Origin: Komagataeibacter melomenusus
Lineage (GTDB): Bacteria > Pseudomonadota > Alphaproteobacteria > Acetobacterales > Acetobacteraceae
Assembly (NCBI RefSeq): GCF_013155395.1
Contig: NZ_JABJWC010000030.1
Coordinates: forward strand, 1 to 43,902
Length of the DNA: 43,902 nucleotides
Reading direction: 5' to 3'
The notes under the pieces were generated by a model. The model was not told where the DNA came from. It saw nothing but the letters and a program-made list of their open reading frames with translations, and did not search any database. Positions 3,565-24,759 of this stretch are shown here, in pieces; position 1 is the stretch's first letter, and each line of letters opens with the position of its first letter. The position numbers and the translations under genes are program-made.

Positions 3565-3584
3565 TATAGTATATTAAAATAAAA

Positions 3585-6778: not shown

Positions 6779-7047
6779 CCTATGTCGTCTGCAATCGTGG
6801 GTATGCTTCGCACAAATTCTGTGAAGAACTCTGGAATCAGAGATCTCGTCCTATCTCATCCTGCCAAGCAGGAATGATCGTGAAGTTGCCCGTCCCAAAT
6901 GGGCTTGCAGGCACCGGCATCTGGTCGAAAACTTGTGAGTAAGGCTCAAGAAATGATGGCCTGTCGCAATTCAATACGAAAAAACCGTCGTATCCTTCTT
7001 CTTCTCTTGATGCTGCTACAGCAGATTATATCAAGACCTGACAGACC
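6778..7047 (+). pseudogene. C-terminal relic of an IS5-family transposase
   Basis: Frames here spell VVCNRGYASHKFCEELWNQ, then ARPKWACRHRHLVENL, two stops, and PVAIQYEKTVVSF. This is the order of the IS5-family C-terminus (ADRGYDSxxFRexl, RHxVENxFxxLKxWRxVATRYeKt). Several stops and frame changes show it is dead. It abuts the papain-like relic. The remaining gap to 7173 (about 125 bp) holds no recognisable gene, only an AT-rich leader to the next reading frame. Confidence 0.65.
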
Positions 7048-7173
7048 CTGGTCCTATTGCATGGAACATCTAAAATATTTCCCGGTGTAAGCGGAGAGAC
7101 GCTTCCATATCTATCAGAAATAAAATAGAAATATATTGAGAAGTGCCGGAACAATTTAAGATGGGAGTTAAAT

Positions 7174-7910
7174 ATGAGCCTTCGAGACGTCATAAACCGT
7201 TGCATTGAGACGGTAGCTAATAGCAGATTATCATTGAAATACCGGATGCCAGACGTGGATGCGCAGACACGTGAAATATATCATCGTATTGCTAAATATA
7301 CGATGACTTCACCTGAGCGTATTGCTGGCTTGTGCCAAGCAGTTCGTTATGTAACTGATGCTAAAATTCCAGGAGCTTATGTCGAATGCGGCGTATGGCG
7401 TGGCGGAAGCAGTATGGCTGCTGCACTCAGCTTTATTGCTGCCGGTGAAACGGAACGCCCCATCTATCTCTTTGATACGTTCGAAGGCATGTCTTCTCCG
7501 TCAACACATGATCTGAGGGCTAAAGACGGAACCGCAGCGGCAGAACTTCTCAGGTTGTCGAAGAAATCAGACAAAATATGGTGCAACGCATCCATAGAAG
7601 ATGTGACCATCAATATGGCCTCAACCTCATATGATATGAAACGAGTAACATTATGCAAGGTATGGTTGAACAGACTCTGCCAATGCAAGCTCCCGAGAAA
7701 ATTGCAGTGTTGCGATTGGATACAGATTGGTACGAATCGACCCGACATGAACTGGAGCACCTTTATCCGCGCTTGGTTCCTGGTGGGGTTTTAATAATTG
7801 ATGATTATGGATACTGGGCAGGTGCTCGAAAAGCAGTCGATGAATATTTCTCAGATAAGCCGATTCTATTAAATCGCCTTGACAATACGGGTCGAATCGC
7901 TGTTAAATAG
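7174..7910 (+). pseudogene. TylF/MycF-type O-methyltransferase, single-base frameshift
   Basis: The family (macrocin O-methyltransferase, SAM- and Mg-dependent sugar methylation) is clear from IPGAYVECGVWRGGSS and YLFDTFEGMSSP in the first frame. RLDTDWYESTRHELEHL and GGVLIIDDYGYWAGARKAVD follow in the second. The first frame runs from ATG 7174 to about 7658 and the rest continues one frame over to the TAA at 7908-7910. The break lies at AAGG 7657-7660, where one missing G would restore KGMVEQTLP. The joined product would be about 245 residues, normal for the family. It is either a recent pseudogene or a sequencing slip in a short G run. It could have methylated the segment 1 glycan. Confidence 0.82.
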
Positions 7911-7962
7911 GAGTATTTATCTTTAATATTTCAATAATAACAGAACGAATTGTATATTTGTT

Positions 7963-8097
7963 GATGACAAGCATGATGCAGTCTGGGACATGCTGATCGG
8001 GGAAGTCCGTCCGAAAGCCTCACCGAAGGCTCTTCGGCGGACGATATCCGCGATTTTCTGGCGCTATCACAGCAGTGCAGAGTGGCGTGCCTTAACA
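7963..8097 (+). pseudogene. N-terminal relic of IS5-family transposase
   Basis: A single open frame reads AVWDMLIGEVRPKASPKALR, then RTISAIFWRYHSSAEWRAL, the start of the same transposase family as the minus-strand fragment at 1-84. Homology stops at about 8097, where integrase-like sequence begins without a gap. The abrupt junction suggests a deletion between an IS and the integrase gene. Confidence 0.6.
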
Positions 8098-8551
8098 CCT
8101 CGAATGGGCACAGATCAAGCTCAGTGCCTGCAAGGGCTATAAGAATTTCCTCCAGCCGCTGAAGGACGGTTGCGGCACTGCTTTCGTGGCTGAACCGAAC
8201 CGGGCTTATTGTGCCTGCATGCGTGAGGAAATCCAGACATTCCTGCGCCAACTGGCCGCTTTCCGATTGCTGCTGGTGCTCGGCACCGGGCAGCGCGGCA
8301 TCGTCTGGCATGGCCGCCTGCGTGCCACAGCAGCTTCGTGGTTGGCGGAAATGGGATGCACGGAACACGAAATCATGTCGATCACCGGACACACGACTAC
8401 TGCATCAGTAAGCGTGTACGTGCGTTATGCTGAGCAGAAAACACGCGCAGTTAATGCCATCGCCAAGCTCTCTAACCGACCCCTGGAACAGGCGGGTAGA
8501 AAGCAGGGAGTGACTAACATTTTCAAACAGGGGAAAAAAGTGACTAACAGC
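8098..8551 (+). pseudogene. Decayed tyrosine integrase, first of three copies
   Basis: The nucleotide sequence aligns with the intact integrase at 22785-23891 in three blocks. 8098-8200 matches the EWAQLKPSTRKDYEKFLQPL region, 8207-8303 matches EIQTFLR through GTGQRGI, and 8300-8551 matches IVWHGLRATAASWLAEMG to the C-terminus. Between blocks two and three about 240 bp are missing, and the breakpoint falls on a GGCATCG present at both ends in the intact copy, as expected for deletion between short direct repeats. The 5' end is replaced by an IS relic. The catalytic Lys region is lost, so it cannot recombine. Confidence 0.85.
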
Positions 8552-8609
8552 GACTGCGGCGGAGCCGTAAAAACGTCGGTTAAGTCACTGAAGATAAACC
8601 CTAACGTGA

Positions 8610-8657
8610 TGGTAGCGATGGACGGATTTGAACCGCCGATCAAGGGCTTATGATTTT
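8610..8657. repeat. att1: duplicated 3' part of tRNA-Met
   Basis: About 48 bp reproduce, with a few changes, the anticodon-stem to CCA part of the tRNA-Met gene at 26948-27022 (shared GGACGGATTTGAACCGCCGA). It follows the integrase relic at the same distance and orientation as in the tRNA-linked copy. This is the classic trace of tRNA 3'-end integration and marks the boundary of segments 1 and 2. Confidence 0.8.
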
Positions 8658-8769
8658 CCTATTTCCCCCATGAAATCAAAGATGTTGGTCAAAAACTGCC
8701 CATATGCAGCATGCCGTAGAATCACGAGTCGTTTGAAGATTGACTAACAGCTTTTGCGATTCGAATTAG

Positions 8770-8813
8770 CACTACAGTTGTTTTTCGAGATGAGAGGCAT
8801 AAGTGTCACTCTA
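8770..8813. repeat. Left part of a MITE-like element truncated by an IS
   Basis: CACTACAGTTG followed by TTCGAG and ATAAG-GTCA spacing resembles the left half of the 87-bp element at 23892-23978. It is preceded by TTAG (compare CTAG there). The right inverted arm is missing because the IS5-family element begins at 8814. Confidence 0.4.
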
Positions 8814-9672
8814 GAGGGTGTTATGCACCTTGAGCGAGTATAGCGGCGTTTCTGAGCATGAAACATGCGAAAGCGACGACATGGAGACTTGCGAGGGTTG
8901 AAGCGTAACGCTCGTAGTCCTTGACGAGCCTGCGGCATCGTGTGGCCCATGCGAAAGACCGCTCGACGACCCATCGGCGCGGCAGCAGGACAAAGCCGCG
9001 CTTGGCTTCGGGCAACTTGACGACTTCGAGTGCGATACCGTGCGTGCGAGCCGCCTCGTCTGGTTTTGAGCCCGTATATCCCTGATCGACATAGGCTAGT
9101 TCGACGCTTTCGTCAGTGGCCTCCTGAATGGCAGCGGCGAGGCGTCCGACCTCGGCGCGATCATCCCGGTTGGCTGGCGTGACATGCAGGGCCAGCAGGT
9201 GGCCCAGCGTATCCACAGCCATATGCAGCTTCGAGCCCCGTTTGCGTTTGGCCCCGTCGTAACTGGCGCGAGGCCCGCTCTCGGGTGTCGAACGCAATGT
9301 CCGGCTGTCGAGGATGGCTGCGGTGGGTTCCGGCTGGCGACCGGAAGCCATGCGCAAGACGGCACGTAGATCGCAGGCCAGCGTCTCGAAGCAGCCGGCA
9401 TCCATCCAACGACGAGACTGCTGATAAACCGCCGACCACGGCGGCAGATCGTTTGGTATCGCACGCCAGGCAATCCCGTAGCGGATCACGTAGCGCAACC
9501 CGTTGAACAGTTCGCGCAGATCATGCCGCTGTTCCGCGTCCTCTCGCATCAGGACCAGATACGGAACGACCAGAGACCATTCTTCGTCTGATACATCAGA
9601 GGGATACGGTTTGCGTGCGGGTGCCATCTCTCATTACTGCACCAATCAGGAACGAAAGTACATAACCCCCTC
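8814..9672 (-). mobile_element. IS5-family insertion sequence, complete
   Basis: An 859-bp element bounded by imperfect inverted repeats (GAGGGTGTTATGCAC at the left, GAGGGGGTTATGTAC read inward from the right, 13 of 15 identical). A TA dinucleotide flanks each end (8812-8813, 9673-9674), which fits an IS5-type target duplication. It contains one intact transposase gene on the minus strand. It inserted into a MITE-like sequence just inside att1. Confidence 0.85.
8821..9627 (-). CDS. IS5-family transposase, intact
   Basis: A 268-residue DDE transposase. The N-terminal DUF4096-like domain is SDEEWSLVVPYL through AWRAIPNDLPPWSAVYQQSR. Catalytic-region motifs are ILDSRTLRSTPESG (first Asp), AYVDQGYTG (second Asp) and RRWVVERSFAWATRCRRLVK (Glu). 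Length is full and no frame breaks are visible, so the element may be active. The ATG at 9627 sits 45 bp inside the right end of the IS. Confidence 0.92.
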   Translation of the reverse strand: MAPARKPYPSDVSDEEWSLVVPYLVLMREDAEQRHDLRELFNGLRYVIRYGIAWRAIPNDLPPWSAVYQQSRRWMDAGCFETLACDLRAVLRMASGRQPEPTAAILDSRTLRSTPESGPRASYDGAKRKRGSKLHMAVDTLGHLLALHVTPANRDDRAEVGRLAAAIQEATDESVELAYVDQGYTGSKPDEAARTHGIALEVVKLPEAKRGFVLLPRRWVVERSFAWATRCRRLVKDYERYASTLASLHVVAFACFMLRNAAILAQGA

Positions 9673-9745
9673 TAGTTAAAGCAGGGGTAGTTTACCTGTT
9701 ACAAGTCTGTAAAAAGAGAGATATTTTTAGCACAAGGAAGCAGTT

Positions 9746-10219
9746 ATGGGTTCTCTCTCTTTTAGACGCTACTACCCTTTCGCAGCGCTGGCATTTTCTG
9801 GGGGTATGCTTGTCGCAGGCATGGCCCATGCCGATAGCGCTAGCCAAGCCAAGCGTCAGCAGCTTCTACAGCAAGAATCAGAAGAAGATAAGCAGTTTCG
9901 TGACAAGGAAACCCAATTAAACAATCATCTCAATCAGTATATGAAGTAATCTGATAATAAAATACAAAAGTTAGTTGACTGGAATGACAATCAAATTTAT
10001 GCAAATGGCCGAAAATGTGATCAGCTTGCAAGGCAGGGGCAGGGTGATGAATGTGTACGCTTAAATACTCAGCAAACCAATGATTTCAACCAGAAGATGA
10101 ATCTGTTGCAGCAGGACCGCCAGAAGTACCAGGTCCAGTTTCAACAGCAGGACGATGATCTGGTGCACCAACACCAATTGATGGTGAGACACATAAGCGA
10201 GAAGCTTAACCAACTCTAA
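9746..10219 (+). pseudogene. Secreted coiled-coil protein interrupted by an in-frame stop
   Basis: From the ATG at 9746 (AAGGA ribosome site 10 bases upstream) the frame encodes a signal peptide (LAFSGGMLVAGMAHA) and a charged, glutamine-rich helix ending at TAA 9947-9949. The same frame then runs open for a further 89 codons (SDNKIQKLVDWN, CDQLARQGQGDECVRLN, KYQVQFQQQDDDLV) to TAA 10217-10219. The composition is continuous, so one CAA-to-TAA type mutation probably split a roughly 157-residue periplasmic protein with two cysteines. The 67-residue product alone may still be made. No family recognised. Confidence 0.75.
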
Positions 10220-10276
10220 CTATGTATTTGTTTGATGCAGGGCTCCAGCGACGGCTCAAGCCCTGCTATGCAGCCG

Positions 10277-10900
10277 TTACTGGTCAGATCTATGGTTGCT
10301 GCCACTTAAAAATGGCCTGACAGGCACGAGGCTGGCGCAATCAATCTCACTCCAATGATTCATCATAGCTTGCACTCGTGCCCACAATTTGTGGCGGCCT
10401 GCGATTAGATGGGCAACCTCAGTGCGCCGGACGACATCATTCTGGTTAAGCAGAGCCGCCTCATAGCTGATCTGCCGGGACATCTCCACATCAGGCATGG
10501 ACGACAGCGGCGCATAGGCCACAGGCAGACTGATCGTCTGCCCGCGCGTCCGGCTGGCATCGGCCTGCACCCCGAACGTCGGCACCGTGGTCGCCGCGCC
10601 CACGCCGAACTGACCGCCCTGCGTGAACTGACCGGAGAGCTGTAGCGTCACGTCGCCTGCAATCGTGCCAACCACCGGGTCGGGCGTATGCTGGCTGCAC
10701 TGGGCGGCGCGCACGGCGCGCGTGAATCGGGCATCCTGCTCTGCCGTCCGGTCACCCGCATGCGAGACCGATACCACCCCGGCCTGCGCCAGACTGGACT
10801 GGATGGAGGCCATGGCCTGCGGGATCGTGGTCTGCACGGGCGCCTGATGGGCGCAGGCAGACAGGCCGAGGGCGCAGGCCAGCGCCAGAAGCGCCCTCAT
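10277..10900 (-). CDS. Putative lipoprotein of phage-like backbone
   Basis: A 207-residue protein with a lipoprotein signal (MRALLALACALGLSAC, lipobox Cys16). The mature part has no domain I recognise; it contains a Gly/Thr-rich middle (FTQGGQFGVGAATTVPTFGV) and a helical end. The start overlaps the stop of the papain-like gene by ATGA, so the two are co-translated. Its position beside that gene and upstream of nothing else on this strand suggests a secreted partner. It is related by context only to the backbone lipoprotein at 17705-18293. Confidence 0.7.
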   Translation of the reverse strand: MRALLALACALGLSACAHQAPVQTTIPQAMASIQSSLAQAGVVSVSHAGDRTAEQDARFTRAVRAAQCSQHTPDPVVGTIAGDVTLQLSGQFTQGGQFGVGAATTVPTFGVQADASRTRGQTISLPVAYAPLSSMPDVEMSRQISYEAALLNQNDVVRRTEVAHLIAGRHKLWARVQAMMNHWSEIDCASLVPVRPFLSGSNHRSDQ

Positions 10901-11721
10901 GCCACACCCCGCAGATATGCATCATTGGCCGCGACCAAGGCCTCCCAGTCCGGCTGGCTCGGTGCCAGAGTCATGGCGGGCTGCAGCTGGCGCCAGGCGA
11001 GCGCGTGCGCTTCCATGATGCGCGAGCGCACCCAGCGCCAGGTCGCGCGCTGCGTGGTGCTCCAGGTGAGCAGGGTCACGATGTCCGTGTCATCCGTGCC
11101 GGTGTAATCCCAGCCCAGCAGGCAATGGCCGTTTGCGGGGGTGGGGTTCGGATCGCCATGTCCGGCCGGGGTGTCGGTATCCCACACCGGAGCCAGCGCA
11201 CCGTTCTCATCTTCCCACAGATCGGCGTCGGCCAGCTGCACGCCGAGATAGGCCGCCGACAGCCCGGCCATGACATTGCGCACGCCATTCAGGTCACCCG
11301 GATCCGCGCTGCCCCAGAGGGGGAACAGGGTCTGGTTGGTCACGGCATACCCATCATGCAGCGCGGTGGTCAGCACATCGACCTCCACGCCGCCGCGGTC
11401 TGTGCCCGGCTGGCCCGGCACATAGCCAGTGGAGCGGGAGTAGAACGCCACGGCCTGCGGCGTAGTGACGTCGGTCTGGAATCCGTTCAGGACGGACGTG
11501 GCGCGGATGTGGTTGCCGATCCCGGCCGAGGTGCAGTCCCCCAGCATATCATTGCCCAGCAGCAGCGGAGCAGGATCAATATGGCTGCGGTCAAGCCGGG
11601 CAGGAGCCTGCCGGGCCATGAAGCTGCGCATGACCGACATAGAGGGCTGCCCTGCGCGCGTTTGAGGAGCAAGGCAGCCGAGTTTACGCTTATTAGCAAA
11701 TCTGGATGGTTTCATGTTCAT
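10897..11721 (-). CDS. Papain-like (C1/C39-type) protein of the element backbone
   Basis: A 274-residue protein. The pattern LLGNDMLGDCTSAGIGN (Cys63), then NGHCLLGWDYTG (His199) and LLTWSTTQRATWRW resembles the Cys, His and Asn-Ser-Trp blocks of papain-fold peptidases, although the third position is Trp-Ser rather than Asn-Ser. No signal peptide is evident. It could be a peptidase or a bacteriocin/virion-type processing protein. It heads a two-gene unit with the lipoprotein at 10277. A decayed homologue lies at 6565-6778. An alternative start is ATG 11715. The protease call is an inference from motif order. Confidence 0.6.
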   Translation of the reverse strand: MNMKPSRFANKRKLGCLAPQTRAGQPSMSVMRSFMARQAPARLDRSHIDPAPLLLGNDMLGDCTSAGIGNHIRATSVLNGFQTDVTTPQAVAFYSRSTGYVPGQPGTDRGGVEVDVLTTALHDGYAVTNQTLFPLWGSADPGDLNGVRNVMAGLSAAYLGVQLADADLWEDENGALAPVWDTDTPAGHGDPNPTPANGHCLLGWDYTGTDDTDIVTLLTWSTTQRATWRWVRSRIMEAHALAWRQLQPAMTLAPSQPDWEALVAANDAYLRGVA

Positions 11722-11882
11722 GAATATCTATATGTCTGCATGTTTGCCAACGGTGATTGACATGGCCATTCGCGTTGAGCGATATCGTGGTCGGAAAAGT
11801 TATGATCGCTATATGGTAGCCGGTAACTCCTGCTCCGTTATTTGTATAAATGGTAAATAGGAAAAGGAAGATTTATAGATTC

Positions 11883-11906
11883 AATAATAATAATAATAAT
11901 AATAAA
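11883..11906. repeat. AAT trinucleotide microsatellite upstream of the FkbH operon
   Basis: About eight tandem AAT units lie 85 bp before the FkbH start in an AT-rich 270-bp gap (11722-11990) that contains no gene. The first 150 bases of the gap hold no feature I recognise. The repeat lies in the leader or promoter zone of the operon. Confidence 0.8.
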
Positions 11907-11948
11907 ATAAATATATCATAAATAAATATAAAATTGATATGTTTACAT

Positions 11949-11954
11949 TATAAT
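11949..11954 (+). promoter_or_regulatory. Possible -10 box of the FkbH operon
   Basis: A perfect TATAAT sits 37 bp before the start codon in the AT-rich leader. No good -35 is seen at 16-18 bp; TTGATA at 11934-11939 is too close. AT richness makes chance matches likely. Confidence 0.3.
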
Positions 11955-11990
11955 AATTTACTTTTAGTTCTGTATGCGGAAGGATTACCG

Positions 11991-13889
11991 ATGTTACAAC
12001 TTTCATGGCTACCGAAACCATCGTCAGAATGGAAAAAACAGTTTGTGGAAGGAATGGAATTATCCGGTAATGACCTGGAATGTTGGGAATTTATACGAAA
12101 AAATTGCCAATATGATCTATCTATATCTGATATCCGGAGAGTGGATAAAGCGATTTCGTCCATATTCATGGATGGCGTCCCAGATGGACTGCCCAATGCG
12201 CCTATCCGATTGGCGATCCTTTCTTCCTGCACGATCGGCCATTTGCTCTCCGCAATTCGTGTGGCCGCGGCACGGCGAAATCTGTGGATAGATATTTACA
12301 CGACTGATTTTGGGCAATATGTGCATGAACTGAGTGATGCAAGCTCTGCATTATATGCATTCAAGCCCGATATTGTGCTCTTCAGTCTCGATTCACATCA
12401 CGCTACAGCTTCTATCGCTTCAGCTAAGGAGCCAATTGTCGCTCGTGAAAAGTTTCTTGCTCATTTGCAATGGGCATGGCGCACTGCACGAGAGGGATTG
12501 GGAGCGACTGTTATCCAGCAGACCTTTCTGCCTCTGTTTCCGACCGTGTTAGGCAACAATGAGGTCAGATGTGAGCATAGTCGCAATGCCACGATTACAT
12601 GGTTGAACGACCGCCTGCGGCATGAAGATGTTTTGCTGCTATCGGTCGATGCAGAAGTTGCGCAGGATGGCCTCGCTGCATGGTATGACCAGATGCTCTG
12701 GTATCGCGCAAAGCAGGAAATCCATCCCATGGCTGCGGCCATGTATGGCGACATGGCGGGACGCCTTCTGGCCGCACTGCGTGGTCTCTCGAAAAAATGC
12801 CTGGTTCTTGATCTCGACAATACCCTGTGGGGCGGGGTAATCGGTGATGACGGCATGGAAGGCATTGCGCTGGGCCAGGGGAGCGCATTGGGAGAGGCTT
12901 ATCTGGCATTCCAGGAGTATGTTCTGGCATTGAAACAGCGCGGGGTCATTCTGGCCGTATGCTCCAAAAATACTGAAAGCGTGGCGAAAGAGGTCTTCGA
13001 GAAGCATCCGGAGATGAAAATCCGCTTGTCGGATATCGCCTGTTTCGTTGCAAACTGGACTGATAAAGCGACCAATCTGCGTATGATTTCTCAGACATTG
13101 AATATCGGCATTGATTCGCTTGTCTTTGCGGACGACAACCCGGCTGAACGGGCAATCGTGCGGCAGGAATTACCGATGGTTGCCGTTCCTGAACTGCCTG
13201 AAGATGCAGGTCTTTACGCAGGGGCGCTTGCACGCAGTGGTTATTTCGAAGGAATACGTGTCACGGATGATGACCTGGCACGGTCAGCACAGTATCAGGA
13301 AAACATTCAACGTCGAAAACTGGCAGAAGTCACCACCGATATCGATGCCTATCTGACCAATCTCGATATGACGATGATCTGGAATGACAAAATCACTCCC
13401 GTAACCCTGCCTCGGGTCACGCAACTCATAAACAAGACCAACCAGTTCAACCTTACGACAATTCGGACGGATGAAGGGGAGATCACACATTTGATGAATG
13501 ATCCCCATTCTGTAGTGCTGGTCATGCGTCTGAAGGACACGTTTGGCGATAATGGCATTATTTCAGTTATTACCTGTCAGGACGCTGATGGTAATAAAAC
13601 AGAAAAAACTTCCGACCTTCGTATCATACGATGGGTTATGAGCTGTCGTGTTCTCAAGCGGGGGGTTGAGCAGGCTGCAATTAACCTGCTTGCAATGATA
13701 GCAGCCCAGCGTGGAAAAACGGCAATCATTGGCGAATACAGGCCAACGGATCGTAATGCCATGGTTGCTGACCTGTATGAACGTCTTGGTTTCTCAAAGT
13801 TCGGGGAACAGGAGGATGGAAGCACATTATGGCGGCTGGACATCCCGCGTCCCGATCTCCCCCATCATATCCATCTTGAAAAGGCCTGA
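11991..13889 (+). CDS. FkbH-like HAD-IIIC/GNAT enzyme, putative glyceryl-ACP synthase
   Basis: A 632-residue multidomain protein. An N-terminal SGNH-like domain (IRLAILSSCTIGHLLSAIRV, near residue 75) is followed by a HAD-IIIC phosphatase domain with KCLVLDLDNTLWGGVIGDDG (Asp274, Asp276), ILAVCSKN and VFADDNPAER. A GNAT-like C-terminal region ends in AMVADLYERLGFSKF. FkbH-family enzymes take 1,3-bisphosphoglycerate, dephosphorylate it and load glycerate onto an acyl carrier protein; an ACP gene lies 3 bp downstream. I start at ATG 11991 (GGAAGG seven bases upstream). It is cytoplasmic and the first gene of a four-gene plus-strand operon inserted between minus-strand phage-like genes. Glyceryl chemistry is inferred from the family. 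Confidence 0.85.
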   Translation: MLQLSWLPKPSSEWKKQFVEGMELSGNDLECWEFIRKNCQYDLSISDIRRVDKAISSIFMDGVPDGLPNAPIRLAILSSCTIGHLLSAIRVAAARRNLWIDIYTTDFGQYVHELSDASSALYAFKPDIVLFSLDSHHATASIASAKEPIVAREKFLAHLQWAWRTAREGLGATVIQQTFLPLFPTVLGNNEVRCEHSRNATITWLNDRLRHEDVLLLSVDAEVAQDGLAAWYDQMLWYRAKQEIHPMAAAMYGDMAGRLLAALRGLSKKCLVLDLDNTLWGGVIGDDGMEGIALGQGSALGEAYLAFQEYVLALKQRGVILAVCSKNTESVAKEVFEKHPEMKIRLSDIACFVANWTDKATNLRMISQTLNIGIDSLVFADDNPAERAIVRQELPMVAVPELPEDAGLYAGALARSGYFEGIRVTDDDLARSAQYQENIQRRKLAEVTTDIDAYLTNLDMTMIWNDKITPVTLPRVTQLINKTNQFNLTTIRTDEGEITHLMNDPHSVVLVMRLKDTFGDNGIISVITCQDADGNKTEKTSDLRIIRWVMSCRVLKRGVEQAAINLLAMIAAQRGKTAIIGEYRPTDRNAMVADLYERLGFSKFGEQEDGSTLWRLDIPRPDLPHHIHLEKA

Positions 13890-13892
13890 TAT

Positions 13893-14153
13893 ATGTCTCT
13901 CTCCCCCCAAAAGCAGCAGATCCTGACCGAACTGACCGAACTCTGTCGTGATATTCTGGACGATGACAGCCTGACCCTTACCATGGCAACGACAGCTGAT
14001 AGTGTTCCCAACTGGGATTCAATGAGCCACATTGCCATTGTAACCGCAGCGGAACAGAAATTTGGCATCAAGTTCCGCACCGCAGAGATCGAAGAACTTC
14101 ATTCTGTCGGCGATTTTGTCGATTTGATTGCCGAAAAAAAAGGCATCGTATAA
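13893..14153 (+). CDS. Acyl carrier protein
   Basis: An 86-residue acidic protein with the phosphopantetheine site NWDSMSHIAIV (Ser43; most ACPs have DSL) and the helical pattern of a stand-alone ACP (LTELCRDILDDDS; AAEQKFGIKF; IEELHSVGDFVDLIAEKKGI). It lies three bases after the FkbH-like gene and 81 before the MBOAT gene, so it most likely carries the short acyl group made by FkbH as a thioester and hands it to the membrane acyltransferase. A host phosphopantetheinyl transferase, not encoded here, would be needed. Confidence 0.9.
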   Translation: MSLSPQKQQILTELTELCRDILDDDSLTLTMATTADSVPNWDSMSHIAIVTAAEQKFGIKFRTAEIEELHSVGDFVDLIAEKKGIV

Positions 14154-14234
14154 AAATCTTCACGCCTTTTGGCTATCGGGACAAGCAGGAAGAAATTTCT
14201 GGCTGTCCCGATTTGTTTTTGTGCCTGGATTAAC

Positions 14235-15866
14235 ATGCTTTTCAATTCTCTCAGCTTTCTGCTGCTTTTCCTACCCGTATGCCTTGTCGCATTTTTTTCT
14301 ATAGGGCGTTTTTCGCTTAAAGCAGGGCAGGCCTTTCTGGGGCTGGCATCTATCATCTTTTATAGCTGGCTTGGCTTTGCGTTTTTGCCACTGCTGGTTA
14401 TATCGATCTTATTCAATTATAGTATCGGAAGGATGATTGCCCGGCAGGAAGAAGGGGATGTACGTGCACGGATGATGCTTGCGTTTGGTGTCATTACCAA
14501 TTTGGCAGCGTTATTCTATTACAAATATATGTTCGATTTTACAACGTGGTTGGGTCTACATATCGGGCATCCGGATATCGCTTTTGGAAGTGCCATTCTG
14601 CCTTTGGGTATCTCCTTCTTTACGTTCACCCAGATAGGATTTCTTGTAGACAGTGCCGCAGGGCTTACGAAATCGCAGAATTTTGTTGAGTACGTTCTAT
14701 TCGTTACGTTTTTTCCGCATGTGATTGCAGGTCCTATCCTGCATCATCGTGAGATGATGCCCCAGTTTCGCCAACGTGAAACATATCACTTCAATCTGAA
14801 CAATTTTTCGATTGGCCTGGCAATTTTCACGATCGGTCTGGCCAAGAAAGTCCTTATTGCCGATAACTGCTTCCGCCCTTATGTGGCATCAACATTTCAA
14901 CCACACATACACTTGACCACAGCTGCTGCCTGGAGCGGCGTACTGTCGTATTTCCTGCAGTTGTATTTTGATTTTTCTGGCTATTCCGAAATGGCAATCG
15001 GTCTGGCGCGTATGTTTAACATTACATTTCCAGCCAATTTTGATTCACCTTATAAGGCAGCAAATGTCATAGATTTCTGGCAGCGCTGGCATATTTCTCT
15101 CACGCGCTTTCTTACGCTTTACGTATACAGTCCTGTAAGTCTTGCACTCAATCGACGTATGGTAACGCGGTACGGTATCATTACCAGTGCTAAGCTAAAA
15201 ATTCCTCATATATTTGCGACACTAGTTGCATTTCCTACAATTCTAACAATGACTCTTGCCGGGGTCTGGCACGGATCGGGCCTTCAATACCTTGTTTTTG
15301 GTATTCTGCATGGGATATATTTAACTATTGCCCATGCCTGGAAAACATGGGGACCGAAACCCGCTAAAAATGTTTCGATATTCCGTGCTCGTCTGGTTCT
15401 GTCAGGAAAAATCCTGCTCACATGTATCGCAGTTTTGATCGGTCAGGTTTTCTTTCGTGCCCCCTCTTTGATGGTCGCATGGAATGTTCTGAAAGCAATG
15501 GTTGGTATTCACGGAACAGAACTTGCCGCATCCACGCAGATTGGTATGGTAGAAACCATGATCAAGGACGGGTGGATGATAATAACTCATCATCCTACAT
15601 TGGTACGGATTGATAAGATGGCAGTTTATGGCCTTGGAAATGCATTGACCATCATTTCTGGTTTATTTGTAGTATGGACATTTCCAAATATTTTGCAGGT
15701 ATTTGGGAAATATGCACCTTCATTGACAAAAATTCGTTCGAAACCTGCCATCTTCCCACTGGAATGGAAGCCAACGGTTATATGGGGACTTGCACTCGGA
15801 ATTCTTTTAATTATTGCCATTCTTGATATGAGTGGCTCGACAGAGTTCCTCTATTTCCAATTCTGA
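14235..15866 (+). CDS. MBOAT-family membrane O-acyltransferase
   Basis: A 543-residue MBOAT of the AlgI/DltB/PatA type, with about ten to twelve hydrophobic segments. The family start MLFNSLSFLLLFLPV fixes the ATG at 14235. Conserved parts include SFFTFTQIGFLVD, FFPHVIAGPI, DFSGYSEMAIGLARM and FWQRWHISLTRF. The active-site region is GVWHGSG (His346) and LHGIYL (His359). MBOATs of this group pass an acyl group from a cytoplasmic thioester across the membrane to a glycan, usually with an SGNH partner, which is the next gene. The preceding ACP and FkbH suggest a glyceryl or related group instead of acetyl. Confidence 0.9.
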   Translation: MLFNSLSFLLLFLPVCLVAFFSIGRFSLKAGQAFLGLASIIFYSWLGFAFLPLLVISILFNYSIGRMIARQEEGDVRARMMLAFGVITNLAALFYYKYMFDFTTWLGLHIGHPDIAFGSAILPLGISFFTFTQIGFLVDSAAGLTKSQNFVEYVLFVTFFPHVIAGPILHHREMMPQFRQRETYHFNLNNFSIGLAIFTIGLAKKVLIADNCFRPYVASTFQPHIHLTTAAAWSGVLSYFLQLYFDFSGYSEMAIGLARMFNITFPANFDSPYKAANVIDFWQRWHISLTRFLTLYVYSPVSLALNRRMVTRYGIITSAKLKIPHIFATLVAFPTILTMTLAGVWHGSGLQYLVFGILHGIYLTIAHAWKTWGPKPAKNVSIFRARLVLSGKILLTCIAVLIGQVFFRAPSLMVAWNVLKAMVGIHGTELAASTQIGMVETMIKDGWMIITHHPTLVRIDKMAVYGLGNALTIISGLFVVWTFPNILQVFGKYAPSLTKIRSKPAIFPLEWKPTVIWGLALGILLIIAILDMSGSTEFLYFQF

Positions 15867-15887
15867 GCGCTGGGCAAGAAACTGATA

Positions 15888-17558
15888 ATGACACAGAATT
15901 CGGGCAGTCCAATGTTACCGGGGCATGAAAACCGCATGATGAAACGCTTCATTGCGGGTTTTACGTTAACAGCATTTGCTGGTTTAAGTCTGACTTGGGG
16001 GGCATGTCACTACAAGAAAAAAATATTTATGGACCCTGAGATGGCCGTTCATAATGCTCATACAGAAATTGAAAAAAAATGCGATGTCGGAAAACTGACT
16101 ATTTTAGGTGATTCCACTGGTATTGCGGATTATCTCCCAGAAGAAATCGGTCCAGACGTAAGAACACTTGCTGTGGGGGGAGGATCTCCACTCGAGAGTT
16201 TTTTTATAATGAAACACATCGTTAATACGTGTTCGTCTTTACCTAAGGCAGTCATTCTTTCCTTCACACCATTCAAGTTGGGTGCAGGTGCGCAGGATAT
16301 GGCATTACTTATGTGGGCTCGATCTGTTCCCTGGAATATAATCTCGTGGCAGGATACTAAGGAAATCTTGCATATTGCTAGAGAAAGTAAGGATACGCAG
16401 CTTTTTGGGTCCAAAAGTCTATTTGACATTGATGCGCGCCTGAAAATATTTCTGTATACGCATAATTTTCCGACATTCTATTTCCCGTCTTTCTTAGGGT
16501 ATTTTCAAGAGGATGTTATACGGCATGATGCATCTGCAAGAAAAAATAAATATAAACATCTTTATAATGATGCTCTTGCTGATGATGGACATGTTTCATA
16601 TGGCCAATCAGTTGAATCGCACTACCCTGATCTTGAAAGTAAAATGCATGGATACTCTATTACGCCAGAGGATGATCAATACTTAAAACGGATCGCTGAT
16701 TTATCTAAAGAGCATGGAATCCACGTTTATTTTGTGGCTCCCCCGCGTAATGCTGAATTCGTACCATTGTATGCAGCAGATATGGTCCAGAAATATGTAG
16801 ATTATATCAAAAGTGGAGAGAAAGCAGGTGAGTGGCATGTGTTAGGTGAGCCATTTAGGGAAATTCCGGCTTCTGCAGTAGGAGATGACTCTCACCTGAA
16901 TGCTCATGGAGAATACTGGTTCAGTCGCGATATCCGACGCGCTCTATTAAGCACTCCGGATGCTACTCTTGCATGGACAGATCAGGCAATTGCGCCTATG
17001 AATATATACGAAAAATCTGAAGCAAGTGTTGCAAATTGGAAGGTAATTGAGCAGAGGGGGCGGTTGCAAAATATGTTTATCGCATCAGACACTATACCTC
17101 CTCGCATGGCATATCAGATGAATGGCCCTGTTGTATCGCTTTCTATTGCACAGCCTGAATTAGAGCATAGTCAAAATGTCTTTTCCATTCAGTCTGATCC
17201 GTCTCCTATCTTGAAACAAGATAGCTATTATGTCGGTTCAATTTTCGTAAAAAATGATAAGGCTCAGTCCGCTACTTGGCGTCTTTTGTTTCCTGGTGGT
17301 TTTGATGGTGCCATTACATGGGATTTTGTGCAGCAGGAAGCACATTGGAATGGCGAGGCAAATCCACTTAATAGTGGCGTTGAAGAATGTGCAGGAGGCT
17401 GGATGCGGTTGTGGGTGAGAGGAAAAACGCGGCCATTCGGTGCAGATTATGAGAATAGTGCTTTTTCTTTTTCTAGTTCTGATGTTGCGGCAGTAAAAAT
17501 ATATGGAGCCTCATTTGAAAATAACTTTAATACTAGGAATGACTGCGCAATAGAATAG
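15888..17558 (+). CDS. Membrane-anchored SGNH (AlgJ/X-like) protein with C-terminal beta domain
   Basis: A 556-residue protein with one N-terminal membrane anchor (about residues 18-36: FIAGFTLTAFAGLSLTWGA) and a periplasmic body. SGNH motifs are LTILGDSTGIADYLP (Ser76) near the start and DDSHLNAHGEYWF (Asp333, His336) near the end of the domain. Residues 350-556 look like a beta-sandwich (VVSLSIAQPEL, SATWRLLFPGGFDG, ITWDF), possibly carbohydrate-binding. Proteins of this type complete acyl transfer to polysaccharide alongside an MBOAT, as AlgJ/AlgX do in alginate O-acetylation. It begins 22 bases after the MBOAT gene and ends the operon 15 bases from the converging phage-like gene. Confidence 0.8.
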   Translation: MTQNSGSPMLPGHENRMMKRFIAGFTLTAFAGLSLTWGACHYKKKIFMDPEMAVHNAHTEIEKKCDVGKLTILGDSTGIADYLPEEIGPDVRTLAVGGGSPLESFFIMKHIVNTCSSLPKAVILSFTPFKLGAGAQDMALLMWARSVPWNIISWQDTKEILHIARESKDTQLFGSKSLFDIDARLKIFLYTHNFPTFYFPSFLGYFQEDVIRHDASARKNKYKHLYNDALADDGHVSYGQSVESHYPDLESKMHGYSITPEDDQYLKRIADLSKEHGIHVYFVAPPRNAEFVPLYAADMVQKYVDYIKSGEKAGEWHVLGEPFREIPASAVGDDSHLNAHGEYWFSRDIRRALLSTPDATLAWTDQAIAPMNIYEKSEASVANWKVIEQRGRLQNMFIASDTIPPRMAYQMNGPVVSLSIAQPELEHSQNVFSIQSDPSPILKQDSYYVGSIFVKNDKAQSATWRLLFPGGFDGAITWDFVQQEAHWNGEANPLNSGVEECAGGWMRLWVRGKTRPFGADYENSAFSFSSSDVAAVKIYGASFENNFNTRNDCAIE

Positions 17559-17573
17559 AATATATTTAAATAA

Positions 17574-17708
17574 TTATTTTATTAGGCTATCGTGAAGCTG
17601 TAAATTTATACGTACTGCATGCAATTTAAGTGGGATCGTAACCAGCAACCCGATGAGGACGACAACGCCGCCCGCACCGGTGATGATGCCCTCCATAAAG
17701 GGCGTCAT
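17574..17708 (-). CDS. Small single-span membrane protein
   Basis: A 44-residue protein with one hydrophobic helix (GIITGAGGVVVLIGLLVTI) and a short basic tail. The ATG overlaps the TGA of the lipoprotein reading frame (17705-17707), a coupled arrangement typical of phage operons. No family recognised. It ends 15 bp from the end of the converging SGNH gene, so part of its original 3' region may have been replaced when the FkbH cassette arrived. Confidence 0.55.
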   Translation of the reverse strand: MTPFMEGIITGAGGVVVLIGLLVTIPLKLHAVRINLQLHDSLIK

Positions 17709-18293
17709 GCCGTCACCCCCAGCACCCTGAGCGCCTGCTGCACTTGTGCCTGCGAAGGGGCAGGCGTGGCGCTGGCCATTGCCCCGACGGGGCGCCGCAC
17801 GGCTACGCTGTCCAGCAGGGCCTTGAATGCCGACACGATGGTGGCCAGCGCGTTGGGCGGTATTGGCATTGGAGAGGTCGGCGCTGGCAACCTTGGTCTC
17901 CACGCCGGTGATGGCGGCGCTCAGGTCTTTCTTGACCGTGCCGAGAGCAGAGAGCACGCTGTCCACCCGGCTTTTCCAGTTCGTGTCATCATAGGTGATG
18001 GTCAGCGTGGAACCGGCCGCCGAAGAAAAGGCGTTCAGGGCAGCATCCAGGGCGGTATCGCCTGCATTGATGATGGCCACGGTCGGCGCGCCGATGGCGC
18101 TGGCCAGCGCCGCGATGCTCAGGATGGTCGAGACGGCGTTCAAGCCTGCCTGCCCGTAATCCTTGATGGCCGCCACGTTGAGGGTGAGGGTGGTGACGTT
18201 GCCGTTCTTCGTGATCGTGCAGGCCGTCAGGGCCGCGCCTGCGACCAGGGCGGACGAGCAGCGCAGGAAGGCGCGGCGGGTGGGGTTGTGCAT
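17705..18293 (-). pseudogene. Tat/lipoprotein of phage-like backbone, frameshifted
   Basis: The start MHNPTRRAFLRCSSALVAG has a twin-Arg-like motif and a lipobox ending LTAC. The body is Ala/Thr-rich (ALASAIGAPTVAIINAGDTA, ITYDDTNWKSRVDSVLSALG). Around 17855-17857 (GGG on the plus strand) the frame changes. Removing one base joins SNANTA to NALATIVSAFKALLDSVAV and gives a protein of about 195 residues that ends by ATGA overlap with the small membrane gene. Without the correction the frame runs 239 codons and fuses out-of-frame sequence to the small protein. It is a pseudogene or a homopolymer sequencing error. Confidence 0.7.
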
Positions 18294-18470: not shown

Positions 18471-18803
18471 TCAGCGCGCGGGCTGGCCCGGCACGACCGG
18501 GCGCTGGGCCTCGACCTTTTCCGGGGCAGGCGCTGCGGCCGGGGTCGCGCTGGCCGTGGCAGGCATGGTCTCGATCGCCGTTTTCAGGTCAGTGATGCCG
18601 GTGAGGATCTTCGTCACGGCGGCATCGATGCCCGCCAGGTCGAGGTTGGGCGCGGCGCGGGCCACGATCACCGGCACCAGCGTCTGCAGCAGGGTGCCTG
18701 CCAGTGCGATGTCAGCCTGCGCGGTGGCCGTGTCTTTCCTGCCCAGCGCGGTCTCGATCAGGGTCTCGAGGGCAGGGATGGCGGTGGTGGTTGTGTCAGC
18801 CAT
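18471..18803 (-). CDS. Small Ala/Thr-rich phage-like protein, function unknown
   Basis: A 110-residue protein, helical in the first 85 residues (AIPALETLIETALGRKDTAT, GIDAAVTKILTGITDLKTAI) with a Pro/Ala-rich tail. I start at ATG 18803, which has GGAGA eight bases upstream, rather than at 18818. No signal peptide or domain is recognised. A strong terminator precedes it, so it may have its own promoter or depend on read-through. Same strand and compositional style as the lysis genes to its right. Confidence 0.65.
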   Translation of the reverse strand: MADTTTTAIPALETLIETALGRKDTATAQADIALAGTLLQTLVPVIVARAAPNLDLAGIDAAVTKILTGITDLKTAIETMPATASATPAAAPAPEKVEAQRPVVPGQPAR

Positions 18804-18820
18804 GAGAGGCATCTCCATAC

Positions 18821-18844
18821 AAAAAAACCGCCTCGAGGGCGGTT
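18821..18844 (-). terminator. Rho-independent terminator after the lysis-like genes
   Basis: Read on the minus strand: AACCGCC, a 5-base loop, GGCGGTT, then a run of T. The 7-bp GC-rich stem and T tract are classic. It ends the unit 19926-18879 and lies just before the 110-residue gene. Confidence 0.85.
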
Positions 18845-18878
18845 GGGGGATCAGGATGATTGAGCCAGGACCGGCCAG

Positions 18879-19217
18879 TCAGGCAGGCGGGGAAGCGCGT
18901 GCAGGCGGCTTTCCGGGGCGCGTGGAGCCGGGCGGGACATCGAGGCGCTGCTCGACTTCCTGCCGGGGCACGGTGGCCGGGACCATCGCGGCCTTCTTTC
19001 CCGGCTGGTAGGCGGGCAGGTTCCACCCGCGCGCCTGGGCGATGGCGGTGACAATGGTCCAGACCAGCACCCATTTCGAGGTGGGGTCCGGCGGCCGCCA
19101 GAACCGCGCGATCAGGGCGCAGGTCGAGATCAGGAACGACAGGATCACCACGACATCCCCGGCATACTGGGCCGGGAGCATCGAGAGCACATCCTGCAGG
19201 AGCGAGAAGGGATCCAT
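18879..19217 (-). CDS. Small membrane protein, holin-like
   Basis: A 112-residue protein with two hydrophobic segments (VVVILSFLISTCALIARFW; WVLVWTIVTAIAQA) and a basic, proline-rich cytoplasmic tail. Its ATG lies one base after the stop of the endolysin-like gene, and a terminator follows, so the pair looks like a lysis cassette. The holin role is inferred from size, topology and neighbour; no family motif was recognised. Confidence 0.55.
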   Translation of the reverse strand: MDPFSLLQDVLSMLPAQYAGDVVVILSFLISTCALIARFWRPPDPTSKWVLVWTIVTAIAQARGWNLPAYQPGKKAAMVPATVPRQEVEQRLDVPPGSTRPGKPPARASPPA

Positions 19218-19218: not shown

Positions 19219-19650
19219 TCAGGCCTCGGCAGGCTGGGGCAGGGCAGGCAGGCCGTGCAGCGCCTGGTCGATCTGGGGCAGGGTGATGTGCCCCGGTCCG
19301 TTCTCCATCAGCGTGATGCCGAAGATCATCTGCCGCATGGTCTGCGCATCGTTCAGGTCCAGCGTGGTGCCGGGCTGCACGCCCATCCGGCTGCACAGGA
19401 CATGAATATAGGCCCCGGTGGGATTTTCGCTGGGGGGCGCATAGACGGAGATGATGGCCGCCACCGTGGTCAGGCCGCGCTGCCCGTAGCGCAGCAGTTG
19501 CTCACGCAGCGCGCGGATGCCATCCGCCATGGTGGGGAAGGCGGCAAAGCGCGGGCAGGGTACGCCGGTTTCCAGATGCGCGCCGGGCTGGTGGGCAAAG
19601 TCGAGATTGCCGGGGTTATTGTTGCGAATGCCGCGCGGGAGTTCGCTCAT
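19219..19650 (-). CDS. Endolysin-like muramidase/transglycosylase (virion P5-type)
   Basis: A 143-residue protein whose start SELPRGIRNNNPGNLDF is the signature of phage structural/lytic proteins related to lysozyme. It is followed by FAAFPTMADGIRALREQLL, TTVAAIISVYAPPSEN and YIHVLCSRMGVQP. These resemble the peptidoglycan-degrading domain of virion-associated transglycosylases. I start at ATG 19650 (AAGGAA about ten bases upstream) rather than 19698. Its place between a coiled-coil membrane protein and a holin-like gene supports a lysis role. Confidence 0.75.
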   Translation of the reverse strand: MSELPRGIRNNNPGNLDFAHQPGAHLETGVPCPRFAAFPTMADGIRALREQLLRYGQRGLTTVAAIISVYAPPSENPTGAYIHVLCSRMGVQPGTTLDLNDAQTMRQMIFGITLMENGPGHITLPQIDQALHGLPALPQPAEA

Positions 19651-19684
19651 GGCGTCAGGTTCCTTTTCGGGGCATTGCCCGGGC

Positions 19685-19926
19685 TCATGGATGTCCACCG
19701 TGGAGGAGCTGGCCGAACCAGTCGCAGAAGGGCGGATAGGCGAACAGGGCGGCGGCGACGGTGCCGATCACGGTGATCAGGCCGACGATGGCCGCCCCGA
19801 TCTGGCGCAGGGCCTTCATGCCGCCGATGAGCTGGCTCATGCACTCGCGCATCTCGGTTGACAGGTCACGTACCTCGCCGCGCAGGGCGCGCAGGTCGGT
19901 CTCGGTTGATTCGACCTTGGTCTCGA
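19685..19926 (-). CDS. Coiled-coil plus membrane-span phage protein, 5' end lost to the IS
   Basis: The frame entering from the IS3 end encodes ETKVESTETDLRALRGEVRD (coiled coil), then IGAAIVGLITVIGTVAAALF (one membrane helix), FCDWFGQLL and a stop at 19685-19687. No start is seen on the far side of the IS: an in-frame TGA lies there two codons upstream of the junction. The N-terminus has therefore been removed. It resembles accessory phage lysis or XhlA-type proteins in layout only. Confidence 0.6.
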
Positions 19927-19976
19927 TGAACTGCCCCGGGTTTACCGGAGAGTAAAACTCTCGGAGGATGAGCCCT

Positions 19977-20298
19977 ATGGTAGAGAAGAAGAAGACATCG
20001 CGTTATTCGCCTGAGTTCCGTGAGCGCGCCGTGCGCCTTCTGGATGAGCATCGCTCGGATTACCCGAGCCTGTCGCGAGATTGGTGGCAAGCTGGGCTGT
20101 TCGGGCGACAGCCTGCACGACTGGTGGAAGCAGGCCCGACAGGACGCTGGGGCGCAACCGGGACCGACCACGGCCGAGACAGCACGGATCAAGGCGCTGG
20201 AGCGTGAGGTCCGTGAACTGCGTCAGGCCAATGAGATCCTCAAGAAGGCCTCGGCTTATTTTGCTCAGGTAGCGCTCGACCGCCCGTTTCGCAAATGA
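19977..20298 (+). pseudogene. IS3-family OrfA, frameshifted
   Basis: OrfA supplies the helix-turn-helix DNA-binding part of the IS3 transposase. It starts at ATG 19977 (GGAGG nine bases upstream) with SRYSPEFRERAVRLLDEHRS. Near 20062 the family sequence moves to another frame (CREIGGKLGCSGDSLHDWWK; ALEREVRELRQANEILKKAS, the leucine-zipper end). A few codons typical after DYPS also seem missing. The break lies inside OrfA, not at the programmed OrfA/OrfB slip site, so the copy is probably inactive. Confidence 0.8.
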
Positions 20299-21200
20299 TC
20301 GCGTTTATTGAAGCCTACCGTGCCGATTACGGGGTCGAGCCAATCTGTCGCGTTCTGCCGATTGCCCCGTCCACGTTTTACCAGCAGGCGTCCCTGGCAG
20401 GAGATCCGGCCAGGGCCAGCCCGCGTACCCTGCGCGATAGGGAACTGATGGAACATATCCGCCGGATCTGGCAGGATAATCGTGCTGTTTATGGTGCGCG
20501 CAAGGTCTGGCACAGCCTGCACCGTGAAGGGCGACAGGTTGCGCGCTGCACTGTTGAGCGCCTGATGCGGCAGATGGGTCTGAAGGGTGTGATCCGGGGC
20601 CGGAAGGTCATCACGACCCGTCCGGATACGGCGCGCCCCTGTCCCGATGACAGGGTCAACCGGCAGTTCCTGGCCGAGAGCCCCAACCAGTTCTGGGTCT
20701 CGGACTTTACCTATGTCCAGACCTGTAATGGCATGGTCTATGTGGCGTTCGTTATCGATGTATTTGCCCGCAGGATCGTGGGCTGGAAGGTCTCGAATTC
20801 CATGACCACCCAGTTCGTGCTCGACGCCCTTGAACAGGCCATCTGGCAACGAAAGCCCTCGGGAAACAAAGCGCTGATCCATCATTCGGACCGTGGATCA
20901 CAATACCTGTCGATCCGGTATACCGAACGCCTGGCGCTGGCTGACATTGATGCTTCGGTCGGCACGGTTGGGGACAGCTACGACAATGCACTGGCAGAGA
21001 CCATCAACGGTTTATACAAAGCCGAGGTCATCCATCATCTGGGGCCATGGAAATCCATGGCGCAGGTCGAATGGGAAACCCTCAGATGGGTGGACTGGTA
21101 CAATAACCGACGTCTGCTGGCGCCAATCGGCTACAGGCCGCCCGCCGAAGCCGAACGCGTCTTCTATGCAGATCAGAGCAGGCTTGATATCGCTGCCTGA
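20295..21200 (+). CDS. IS3-family OrfB transposase (rve integrase core)
   Basis: A 301-residue DDE recombinase. An HTH_21-like region (YRADYGVEPICRVLPIAPST; AVYGARKVWHSL) precedes the rve core with SDFTYVQTCNGMVYVAFVID (Asp), HHSDRGSQY (Asp) and NALAETINGLYKAE (Glu). The ending WVDWYNNRRLLAPIGYRPP is standard. It overlaps orfA by ATGA. It looks intact, but OrfA of the same copy is broken, so movement would need a helper copy. Confidence 0.92.
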   Translation: MIAFIEAYRADYGVEPICRVLPIAPSTFYQQASLAGDPARASPRTLRDRELMEHIRRIWQDNRAVYGARKVWHSLHREGRQVARCTVERLMRQMGLKGVIRGRKVITTRPDTARPCPDDRVNRQFLAESPNQFWVSDFTYVQTCNGMVYVAFVIDVFARRIVGWKVSNSMTTQFVLDALEQAIWQRKPSGNKALIHHSDRGSQYLSIRYTERLALADIDASVGTVGDSYDNALAETINGLYKAEVIHHLGPWKSMAQVEWETLRWVDWYNNRRLLAPIGYRPPAEAERVFYADQSRLDIAA

Positions 21201-21241
21201 TTACTGAACAAATCGCTCTCCGGTAAACCCGGGGCAGTTCA

Positions 21242-21371
21242 GATCCCCGCTCACCAGATCGACCGCATCCGCAACCATCTGCCCGACATGCAGGAAATCG
21301 CCGCCGCCATTTTCCTGTGCTGCCTTGTGTGGGGCGCGGTGATCCTGCTGGTGCTGGAGGCGCTGCCATGA
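21242..21371 (+). CDS. Small membrane protein, 5' end lost to the IS
   Basis: The open frame entering from the IS encodes IPAHQIDRIRNHLPDMQEIA, a hydrophobic helix (FLCCLVWGAVILLVLEALP) and TGA at 21369-21371, overlapping the next start. The initiator and any promoter are gone. It is the first of a series of ATGA-linked small genes leading to the integrase. Function unknown. Confidence 0.55.
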
Positions 21372-22508: not shown

Positions 22509-22813
22509 AAGATGCATCACGCCTGCCGCACTGGCCGCGTGCGATGAGCGAAGAAATGGCAGCGGCTTATGCGGGCGGCATCAGTGTTGCCACACTCAGG
22601 CGAGAGGTCTCGGAAGGCCGAGCCCCTCGGCCACATCATATCTCCGGTCGCCGTGTCGTGTGGTTCATTGAAGAACTGGATGCATGGATGGATCGGATCA
22701 AAGGACAGGCCGCCTTAACTCAGCCCGAACAGAAGCAAAAAACGAATTCATGGGCTGCAGCAGCTGCTGCAGCAGGAAAGACCAGTGGCCAACGTCGTTC
22801 TCCCTTACGTTAA
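22505..22813 (+). CDS. AlpA-like helix-turn-helix protein, putative excisionase
   Basis: A 102-residue protein with a winged-helix AlpA/MerR-like core (MSEEMAAAYAGGISVATLRR, then ISGRRVVWFIEELDAWMDRI) as found in excisionases and regulators next to integrases. The C-terminal tail contains a run of seven alanines encoded by a GCAGCAGCTGCTGC-type repeat. It overlaps the integrase start by 29 bases. It likely binds the att or integrase promoter region. Confidence 0.75.
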   Translation: MKDASRLPHWPRAMSEEMAAAYAGGISVATLRREVSEGRAPRPHHISGRRVVWFIEELDAWMDRIKGQAALTQPEQKQKTNSWAAAAAAAGKTSGQRRSPLR

Positions 22814-24757: not shown

Positions 24758-24759
24758 CG

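Follow-up and report, generated by a model that had tools for sequence, protein, structure and literature searches.

The question raised by this locus is what a set of genes that places an FkbH-type protein and a small acyl carrier protein beside a membrane acyltransferase pair is built to do, and how it comes to lie between prophage genes. The set, a four-gene cassette spanning positions 11991–17558, is found on contig NZ_JABJWC010000030.1 of Komagataeibacter melomenusus (RefSeq assembly GCF_013155395.1), a stretch of 43,902 nucleotides that was analyzed as a whole and is referred to below as the window. An original prediction, made without database searches, held that the four genes form one unit that uses a carrier-bound glyceryl or related C3 group to esterify a surface polysaccharide. 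The reading reached here is that the cassette is probably a Dlt-like machine for trans-membrane glycan acylation, carried as prophage cargo. The four genes are adjacent, as predicted, and a check of the open reading frames (ORFs) found all four intact on the plus strand:

11991 to 13889, plus strand: FkbH-type protein, the proposed carrier-charging loader (632 residues; FkbH_N, HAD-IIIC, and GNAT-like parts).
13893 to 14153, plus strand: acyl carrier protein, with a proposed DltC-like role (86 residues; phosphopantetheine Ser43).
14235 to 15866, plus strand: membrane-bound O-acyltransferase (MBOAT), with a proposed DltB-like role and a built-in shuttle (543 residues; His286 and His346, FLYFQF with Tyr540).
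15888 to 17558, plus strand: SGNH-like protein, with a proposed DltD/PatB-like role (556 residues; Ser76, Asp333, and His336).

The first three proteins pass the curated cut-offs of their families. The loader scores 286.8 bits against TIGR01686 (cut-off 146.65) and 33.4 bits against FkbH_N PF21211 (cut-off 27), carries the predicted DLDNT motif at residues 274–278, and matches PDB entry 3slr with an E value of 7.3e-67. Its HAD catalytic motifs are intact, and D274, D276, S325, K359, D381, D382, and C552 (the cysteine of an SCRV motif) are invariant in 19 of 19 cassette FkbH proteins. The carrier reaches 21.6 bits against PF00550 (cut-off 20.8), with Ser43 lying within WDSM, so that its length and attachment residue are as originally read, and the host possesses an AcpS-type transferase fit to arm it. 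FkbH members described in the relevant passages of PMC7489565 are assigned glyceryl loading from 1,3-bisphosphoglycerate, and by family membership glyceryl is a plausible acyl group for the window cassette.

That the genes belong together is indicated by their recurrence, which the original prediction had proposed to examine by a neighborhood search. A survey of 385 genomes of the class (E 1e-20 or better, all matched loci fetched) found FkbH in 34 genomes at 39 places, and at 17 of these 39 loci, the window included, FkbH, carrier, and MBOAT lie in one fetched stretch. Neither a carrier nor FkbH was found at any of 40 control MBOAT loci, which were chosen by the authors among the matches listed, away from FkbH contigs, and some of which lie on short contigs (L128, L134, L139, and L146); the genome's own second MBOAT (L165) is among them. 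Chance adjacency of the cassette genes was rejected on these counts, and the notion of a single unit is upheld. The 17 triad loci include two that share a genus (L101 and L102) and two that share a genome (L094 and L105). The triad also occurs on a Verrucomicrobiales contig (L003), on a Rhodobacteraceae plasmid (L017), and on S. meliloti pSymB (L015), ∼5 kb from capsule genes. Viral contigs hold FkbH at 11 loci, with the triad on one contig (L176, identical to L237), and a scan of genome contigs with FkbH alone confirmed one locus. The carrier profile was trained on FkbH-neighboring carriers and still detected the DltC-like carriers of loci L235 and L240. The other genomes of the genus (n = 18) contain no comparable FkbH, save for broken pieces in genome G017; weaker FkbH-like matches, at 28–32% identity, are present in others of these genomes. 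The G017 pieces (L087, 7947–8358; 46 and 62% identical) are found ∼6 kb away from an element that resembles the insertion sequence of the window.

The MBOAT scores 75.7 bits against PF03062 (cut-off 27), and His346 is located within a WHG motif. Of the two histidines originally singled out, His346 stands and His359 does not: the alignment identifies His286 as the counterpart of DltB His289, and His359, although it aligns with a conserved histidine, occurs in no more than 7 of 12 FkbH-clade MBOATs compared with 41 of 42 controls. Among PDB sequences, DltB alone gave a match (E 8.9e-23). The score against the DltB equivalog model TIGR04091, however, is 158.7 bits, below the cut-off of 375, and true membership of the Dlt system was rejected for this reason. 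A structure model built from the window sequence and 39 viral-contig MBOATs has a mean predicted local distance difference test score (pLDDT) of 83.4, with residues 287–312 forming one helix and low confidence at 311–318, and its best PDB folds are DltB chains (E 5.8e-12) followed by HHAT. The last six residues, FLYFQF, fit the FXYXXF acyl-shuttle motif, which is described as essential in PatA, where its tyrosine is auto-acetylated (PMC12148441, in the passages on PatA). This ending is found in 14 of 19 distinct linked MBOATs and in 41 of 42 controls, and that of L107 reads YLYFQF. Omitted from the count of 19 are L019, which duplicates L101, and L027, whose MBOAT is cut by the contig end.

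On a tree of these proteins, 12 of the 19 linked MBOATs, that of the window among them, group in a single clade separate from the 42 controls (support 97/98), and the linkage label changes 3 times compared with a mean of 16.3 in shuffles, none of 500 shuffles being as low. Linked MBOATs also differ in the segment on which a carrier would dock. As reported in the pertinent part of PMC11035591, DltC sits on helix HC of DltB and touches Met302, Val305, Ile306, and Met309; a gap-free alignment places the counterpart of this helix at residues 299–306 of the window MBOAT. The region is a short RDYLYIPLGGNR-type stretch in the controls and a longer hydrophobic stretch in clade members. Measured as the distance between the two residues equivalent to His286 and His346, the segment is 60 in the window, 45–60 in 18 of the 19 distinct linked MBOATs, and 40 in 42 of 42 controls. 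The same value of 40 was obtained for 55 of 55 further carrier-free MBOATs (54 from viral contigs and L169), and the window MBOAT thus lacks the form common to all carrier-free proteins in these first two sets. Three distinct carrier-bearing viral contigs gave distances of 47 (L235, whose MBOAT is DltB-like), 52 (L176), and 56 (L240), and DltB itself, by alignment, 47. In addition, a basic residue at position 294 is present in 39 of 42 controls and in none of the 12 clade members, and position 355, the counterpart by alignment of a residue of the DltB active-site pocket (Tyr345), is Phe in 12 of 12 clade members and Trp in 42 of 42 controls.

A further sample of 388 genomes of the phylum provided 30 MBOAT loci, selected as those that best matched a linked MBOAT, of which 27 were new and 3 were earlier controls. 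Seven had a distance other than 40 and a carrier was near six of them; 23 (20 new) had a distance of 40 and a carrier was near none. For the 27 new loci this gives a Fisher P value of 2.4e-5, uncorrected for kinship. The sample is support and not proof, because selection by best match favors relatives of the linked clade. Taken together, these data make it likely that the carrier is the donor of the MBOAT. At locus L240, positions 5902–10290 encode in a row a loader judged by eye to be of the adenylating type, a carrier, an MBOAT whose C terminus reads FIYNQF, and one more protein; by that judgment of its loader, this row is a fused-shuttle Dlt relative with an amino-acid-type loader.

The fourth protein has no Pfam family match. 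Its naming rests on a GDS motif (Ser76), on Asp333-x-x-His336, and on a distant relative beside another MBOAT: within the class sample the nearest relative, from genome G208 and with 24% identity, follows an MBOAT ending in FIYFQF. A profile search of the PDB gave insignificant matches, the best being DltD 6o93 (E 0.47), and no relatives were found in the viral contigs searched for them. Among 14 linked loci for which a neighbor protein was picked by hand, 8 combine a G[DST]S block close to the N terminus with DxxH in the last third, and this would fit an SGNH or DltD-like partner as the rule in linked loci. An SGNH-like partner is therefore retained at the level of motifs. The C-terminal beta domain once read into the same protein is not established, as residues 435–545 gave a sub-threshold match to a phage head spike fiber domain (20.9 bits, cut-off 36) and the single-sequence predicted structure has a mean pLDDT of 33.7.

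Several observations weigh against the reading of a carrier-fed acylation machine. The length rule has misfits: L109 has a distance of 38 despite FkbH and a carrier, L271 a distance of 53 with no carrier found, L274 a distance of 40 with FkbH and no carrier, and L277 a distance of 60 with only a weak carrier match (E 4e-5). In the further sample, FkbH lies in the fetched DNA near only three of the seven long MBOATs. The long-segment cases are not independent, because the trait is largely that of one clade. The MBOATs of L107, L097, L100, L003, and L101/L102 fall outside the main clade, mostly on long branches, for which reason the placement of several is unsure; that of L107 groups with two controls (95/81). 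Position 355 was dropped as a marker for the use of a carrier in general, because Trp occupies it in the linked MBOATs that do not belong to the clade. The C-terminal shuttle motif is missing from the linked MBOATs of L097, L100, L003, and L109. The standing of DltB as best fold is weakened by the absence of PatA and AlgI structures from the match list, and the assignment of the SGNH-like protein is at motif level only. Lastly, genes for MaoC, short-chain reductase, methyltransferase, or VOC proteins accompany several related cassettes, and the specificity of FkbH is not readable from sequence here. The four MBOATs without a shuttle are ∼400–440 residues in length.

The added genes and the specificity of FkbH bear on the alternative that survives best, namely that the machine is as proposed but FkbH and carrier handle a different acyl group, be it lactyl, methylglyceryl, hydroxyacyl, some other C3–C4 group, or one supplied by host enzymes. 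The MaoC, reductase, methyltransferase, and VOC/glyoxalase genes of related cassettes speak for it, and because of them the acyl group may vary between cassettes; a di-O-methylglyceroyl group is, moreover, known on a glycan of Campylobacter jejuni (as given in part of PMC3068675). The window cassette, by contrast, has no tailoring genes between its four genes, and glyceryl loading is what the described FkbH members have been assigned (PMC7489565, same passages). Another acyl group is therefore considered possible but unlikely in the window.

The acylation machine as preferred here is found in a phage setting, which bears out the mobile carriage suggested earlier; the antigenic or phage-receptor change proposed along with it stays a conjecture. 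The cassette is poor in guanine plus cytosine (GC), at 42–51% per kb (12–17 kb) compared with 61% at 10–11 kb and 66–67% at 18–20 kb, and is surrounded by the following features:

11691 to 17616, no strand: inserted segment; similarity to prophages of the genus ends near 11690 and returns at 17617.
10277 to 10900, minus strand: prophage gene A (phrog_28078), a phage family match.
10897 to 11721, minus strand: prophage gene B (phrog_19005), a phage family match and left border of the cargo slot.
17574 to 18293, minus strand: prophage gene C, which borders the cargo slot on the right and recurs in prophages of the genus.
18471 to 19217, minus strand: small prophage genes D (18471–18818) and E (18879–19217), in shared gene order.
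19219 to 19698, minus strand: endolysin-like prophage gene (phrog_873), a phage family match.
19927 to 21244, plus strand: insertion sequence, 90.2% identical to the copy in L087; prophage similarity ends at 19926.
22785 to 23891, plus strand: phage integrase, its C-terminal part 95% identical to the integrase beside gene A in L079.
8581 to 8655, no strand: probable left attachment site, an 87% copy of the tRNA-Met 3′ end.
24008 to 24092, no strand: probable right attachment site, a 79% copy of the tRNA-Met 3′ end.
26948 to 27022, minus strand: tRNA-Met, the probable integration target; phage phiKX1 likewise has tRNA-Met next to the shared gene pair.

The tRNA-Met copies and the integrase suggest a prophage remnant of ∼15.5 kb, truncated at the insertion sequence at 19927. 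The order A–B–slot–C–D–E–endolysin recurs in prophages of the genus and partly in the Komagataeibacter phages phiKX1 and phiKM1, with the right edge of the insert at 17617 or 17618 in 11 of 17 compared loci and the left edge between 11649 and 11721. Between these conserved phage genes, the cassette occupies a slot that holds other cargo elsewhere, and in Komagataeibacter-type prophages the cargo of this slot, between genes B and C, varies (L075–L086 and L091). Its occupants include the IetS defense protein in L077 (right border not seen), a DndB/DpdB-like protein in L076, HicAB with an HD-domain enzyme in phiKM1, an insertion sequence in L078, and a polytopic membrane protein without family match in L080; several slot proteins across these loci have no family matches. 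In L081–L084, the interval between genes A and B is likewise variable. Between the right attachment copy and tRNA-Met, positions 24077–26206 contain three minus-strand ORFs of ∼38% GC with no Pfam match and one match to phrog_11836, perhaps a second small element. To the left of the remnant, two glycosyltransferases, two methyltransferases, and a TylF-type methyltransferase are encoded at 581–4715 and 7174–7794, a possible glycan locus.

Residence in a remnant raises a second alternative, that the cassette is decayed cargo without function and maybe silent. The end of phage similarity at the insertion sequence (19926) and the related FkbH of G017, split into two pieces, are in its favor. The four window genes are nevertheless open and their catalytic motifs intact, and an AT-rich stretch upstream could hold a promoter, though promoter matches there are not enriched (12 compared with 11.5 in shuffles); decay is thus judged improbable. 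The upstream DNA also contains an AAT repeat of 9.7 copies at 11883–11910, ∼80–110 bases before the FkbH start, and changes in repeat number could lead to variable expression.

In the last alternative, FkbH and carrier would serve a separate pathway, for example to a small metabolite, beside an ordinary acetyl-CoA-dependent O-acetylase formed by the MBOAT and SGNH-like protein. In its favor, acyl-CoA-dependent pairs are the common kind, the full triad is missing at 22 of 39 FkbH loci, and the FkbH locus L020, which has no MBOAT, holds a type I polyketide synthase. Against it stand the recurrent adjacency, the grouping of linked MBOATs in a clade of their own, the altered docking segment, and the missing basic residue at position 294, and this coincidence is judged very improbable. 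A polyketide pathway for the window cassette was likewise rejected, since no polyketide synthase occurs among those of the window ORFs that were searched; to that extent the earlier statement that none is nearby holds.

For the glycan acylation machine, the following sequence of steps is proposed. By analogy with its family, FkbH would take a C3 acyl group from 1,3-bisphosphoglycerate, strip the phosphate, and load glyceryl onto the arm at Ser43 of the carrier. The loaded carrier would then dock with the MBOAT from the cytoplasmic side, binding the longer helix that corresponds to HC of DltB, as the alignment supports. His346 may pass the acyl group to Tyr540 of the MBOAT's own FLYFQF, in the fashion of PatA, as the motif suggests; because the FXYXXF shuttle is fused to the MBOAT, a DltX microprotein would be unneeded. 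Ser76 of the membrane-anchored SGNH-like protein would accept the group and esterify a periplasmic or surface glycan, and the benefit would likely be an altered cell surface of the lysogen.

Among the closest known systems is Dlt (DltA-DltC-DltB-DltX-DltD), the teichoic acid D-alanylation system of Gram-positive bacteria, in which loader, carrier, MBOAT, and SGNH-type partner are similarly clustered and the MBOAT has a long carrier-docking segment, DltB being the sole PDB sequence match and best fold match of the cassette protein. The cassette differs in that its loader is FkbH and not the adenylating DltA, which matched none of the four cassette ORFs (the search being limited to these four), in that the DltX motif is fused to the MBOAT (no search aimed at a separate microprotein was made), in an MBOAT that falls below the DltB model cut-off, and in its Gram-negative host. 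With the O-acetylation pairs PatA-PatB and AlgI-AlgJ/X it shares the C-terminal FXYXXF of the MBOAT and, at motif level, an SGNH-type partner, but it has its own carrier and loader and its docking segment is not of the 40-residue form; as far as the passages of PMC12148441 on the matter go, MBOAT/SGNH pathways other than Dlt operate without a carrier protein. In polyketide and tetronate pathways (Mad7/Mad8 and Mad14/Mad12), FkbH also adjoins a stand-alone carrier (PMC7489565, in part), whereas the downstream partner in the cassette is a membrane acyltransferase pair and not a synthase. The di-O-methylglyceroyl pseudaminic acid of Campylobacter jejuni flagellin is likewise a bacterial glycan bearing a glycerate-derived acyl, but there the linkage is an amide on a nucleotide-activated sugar, and the relevant portion of PMC3068675 mentions neither an MBOAT nor a carrier protein. 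Like surface-changing phage moron genes, the cassette is low in GC, lies on the opposite strand, and sits between conserved late prophage genes; unlike them, it would be a four-gene, carrier-dependent machine, and the phages are of Komagataeibacter type. No description of such an FkbH-carrier-MBOAT-SGNH cassette was found in the open-access literature searched, where FkbH and MBOAT are co-mentioned in two papers, which concern the aeruginosin and suomilide natural products.

A carrier donor for an MBOAT, which the original prediction called unusual, is not new in itself, because the DltC-DltB pair is a textbook example of one (PMC12148441 and PMC11035591, in the sections on this pair). What is unusual, and to that extent the claim survives, is the combination of a carrier-fed MBOAT with FkbH as loader and with a PatA-type shuttle motif fused to the MBOAT itself. 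It is tentatively suggested, with rather more doubt than belief, that the cassette and its relatives represent a second, hitherto unrecognized class of bacterial glycan acylation beyond the D-alanylation of teichoic acids, in which carrier-dependent MBOATs that contain their own shuttle attach C3 acids derived from glycolysis to surface glycans, can be distinguished from acyl-CoA-dependent MBOATs by how long the docking segment is, and are spread by phages to alter the host surface. The loader of the cassette and its relatives would draw on a glycolytic intermediate and not on an amino acid. If true, the MBOAT length rule would make the class of donor predictable from sequence, and a new chemical group would join those that phages can add to the surface of their hosts.

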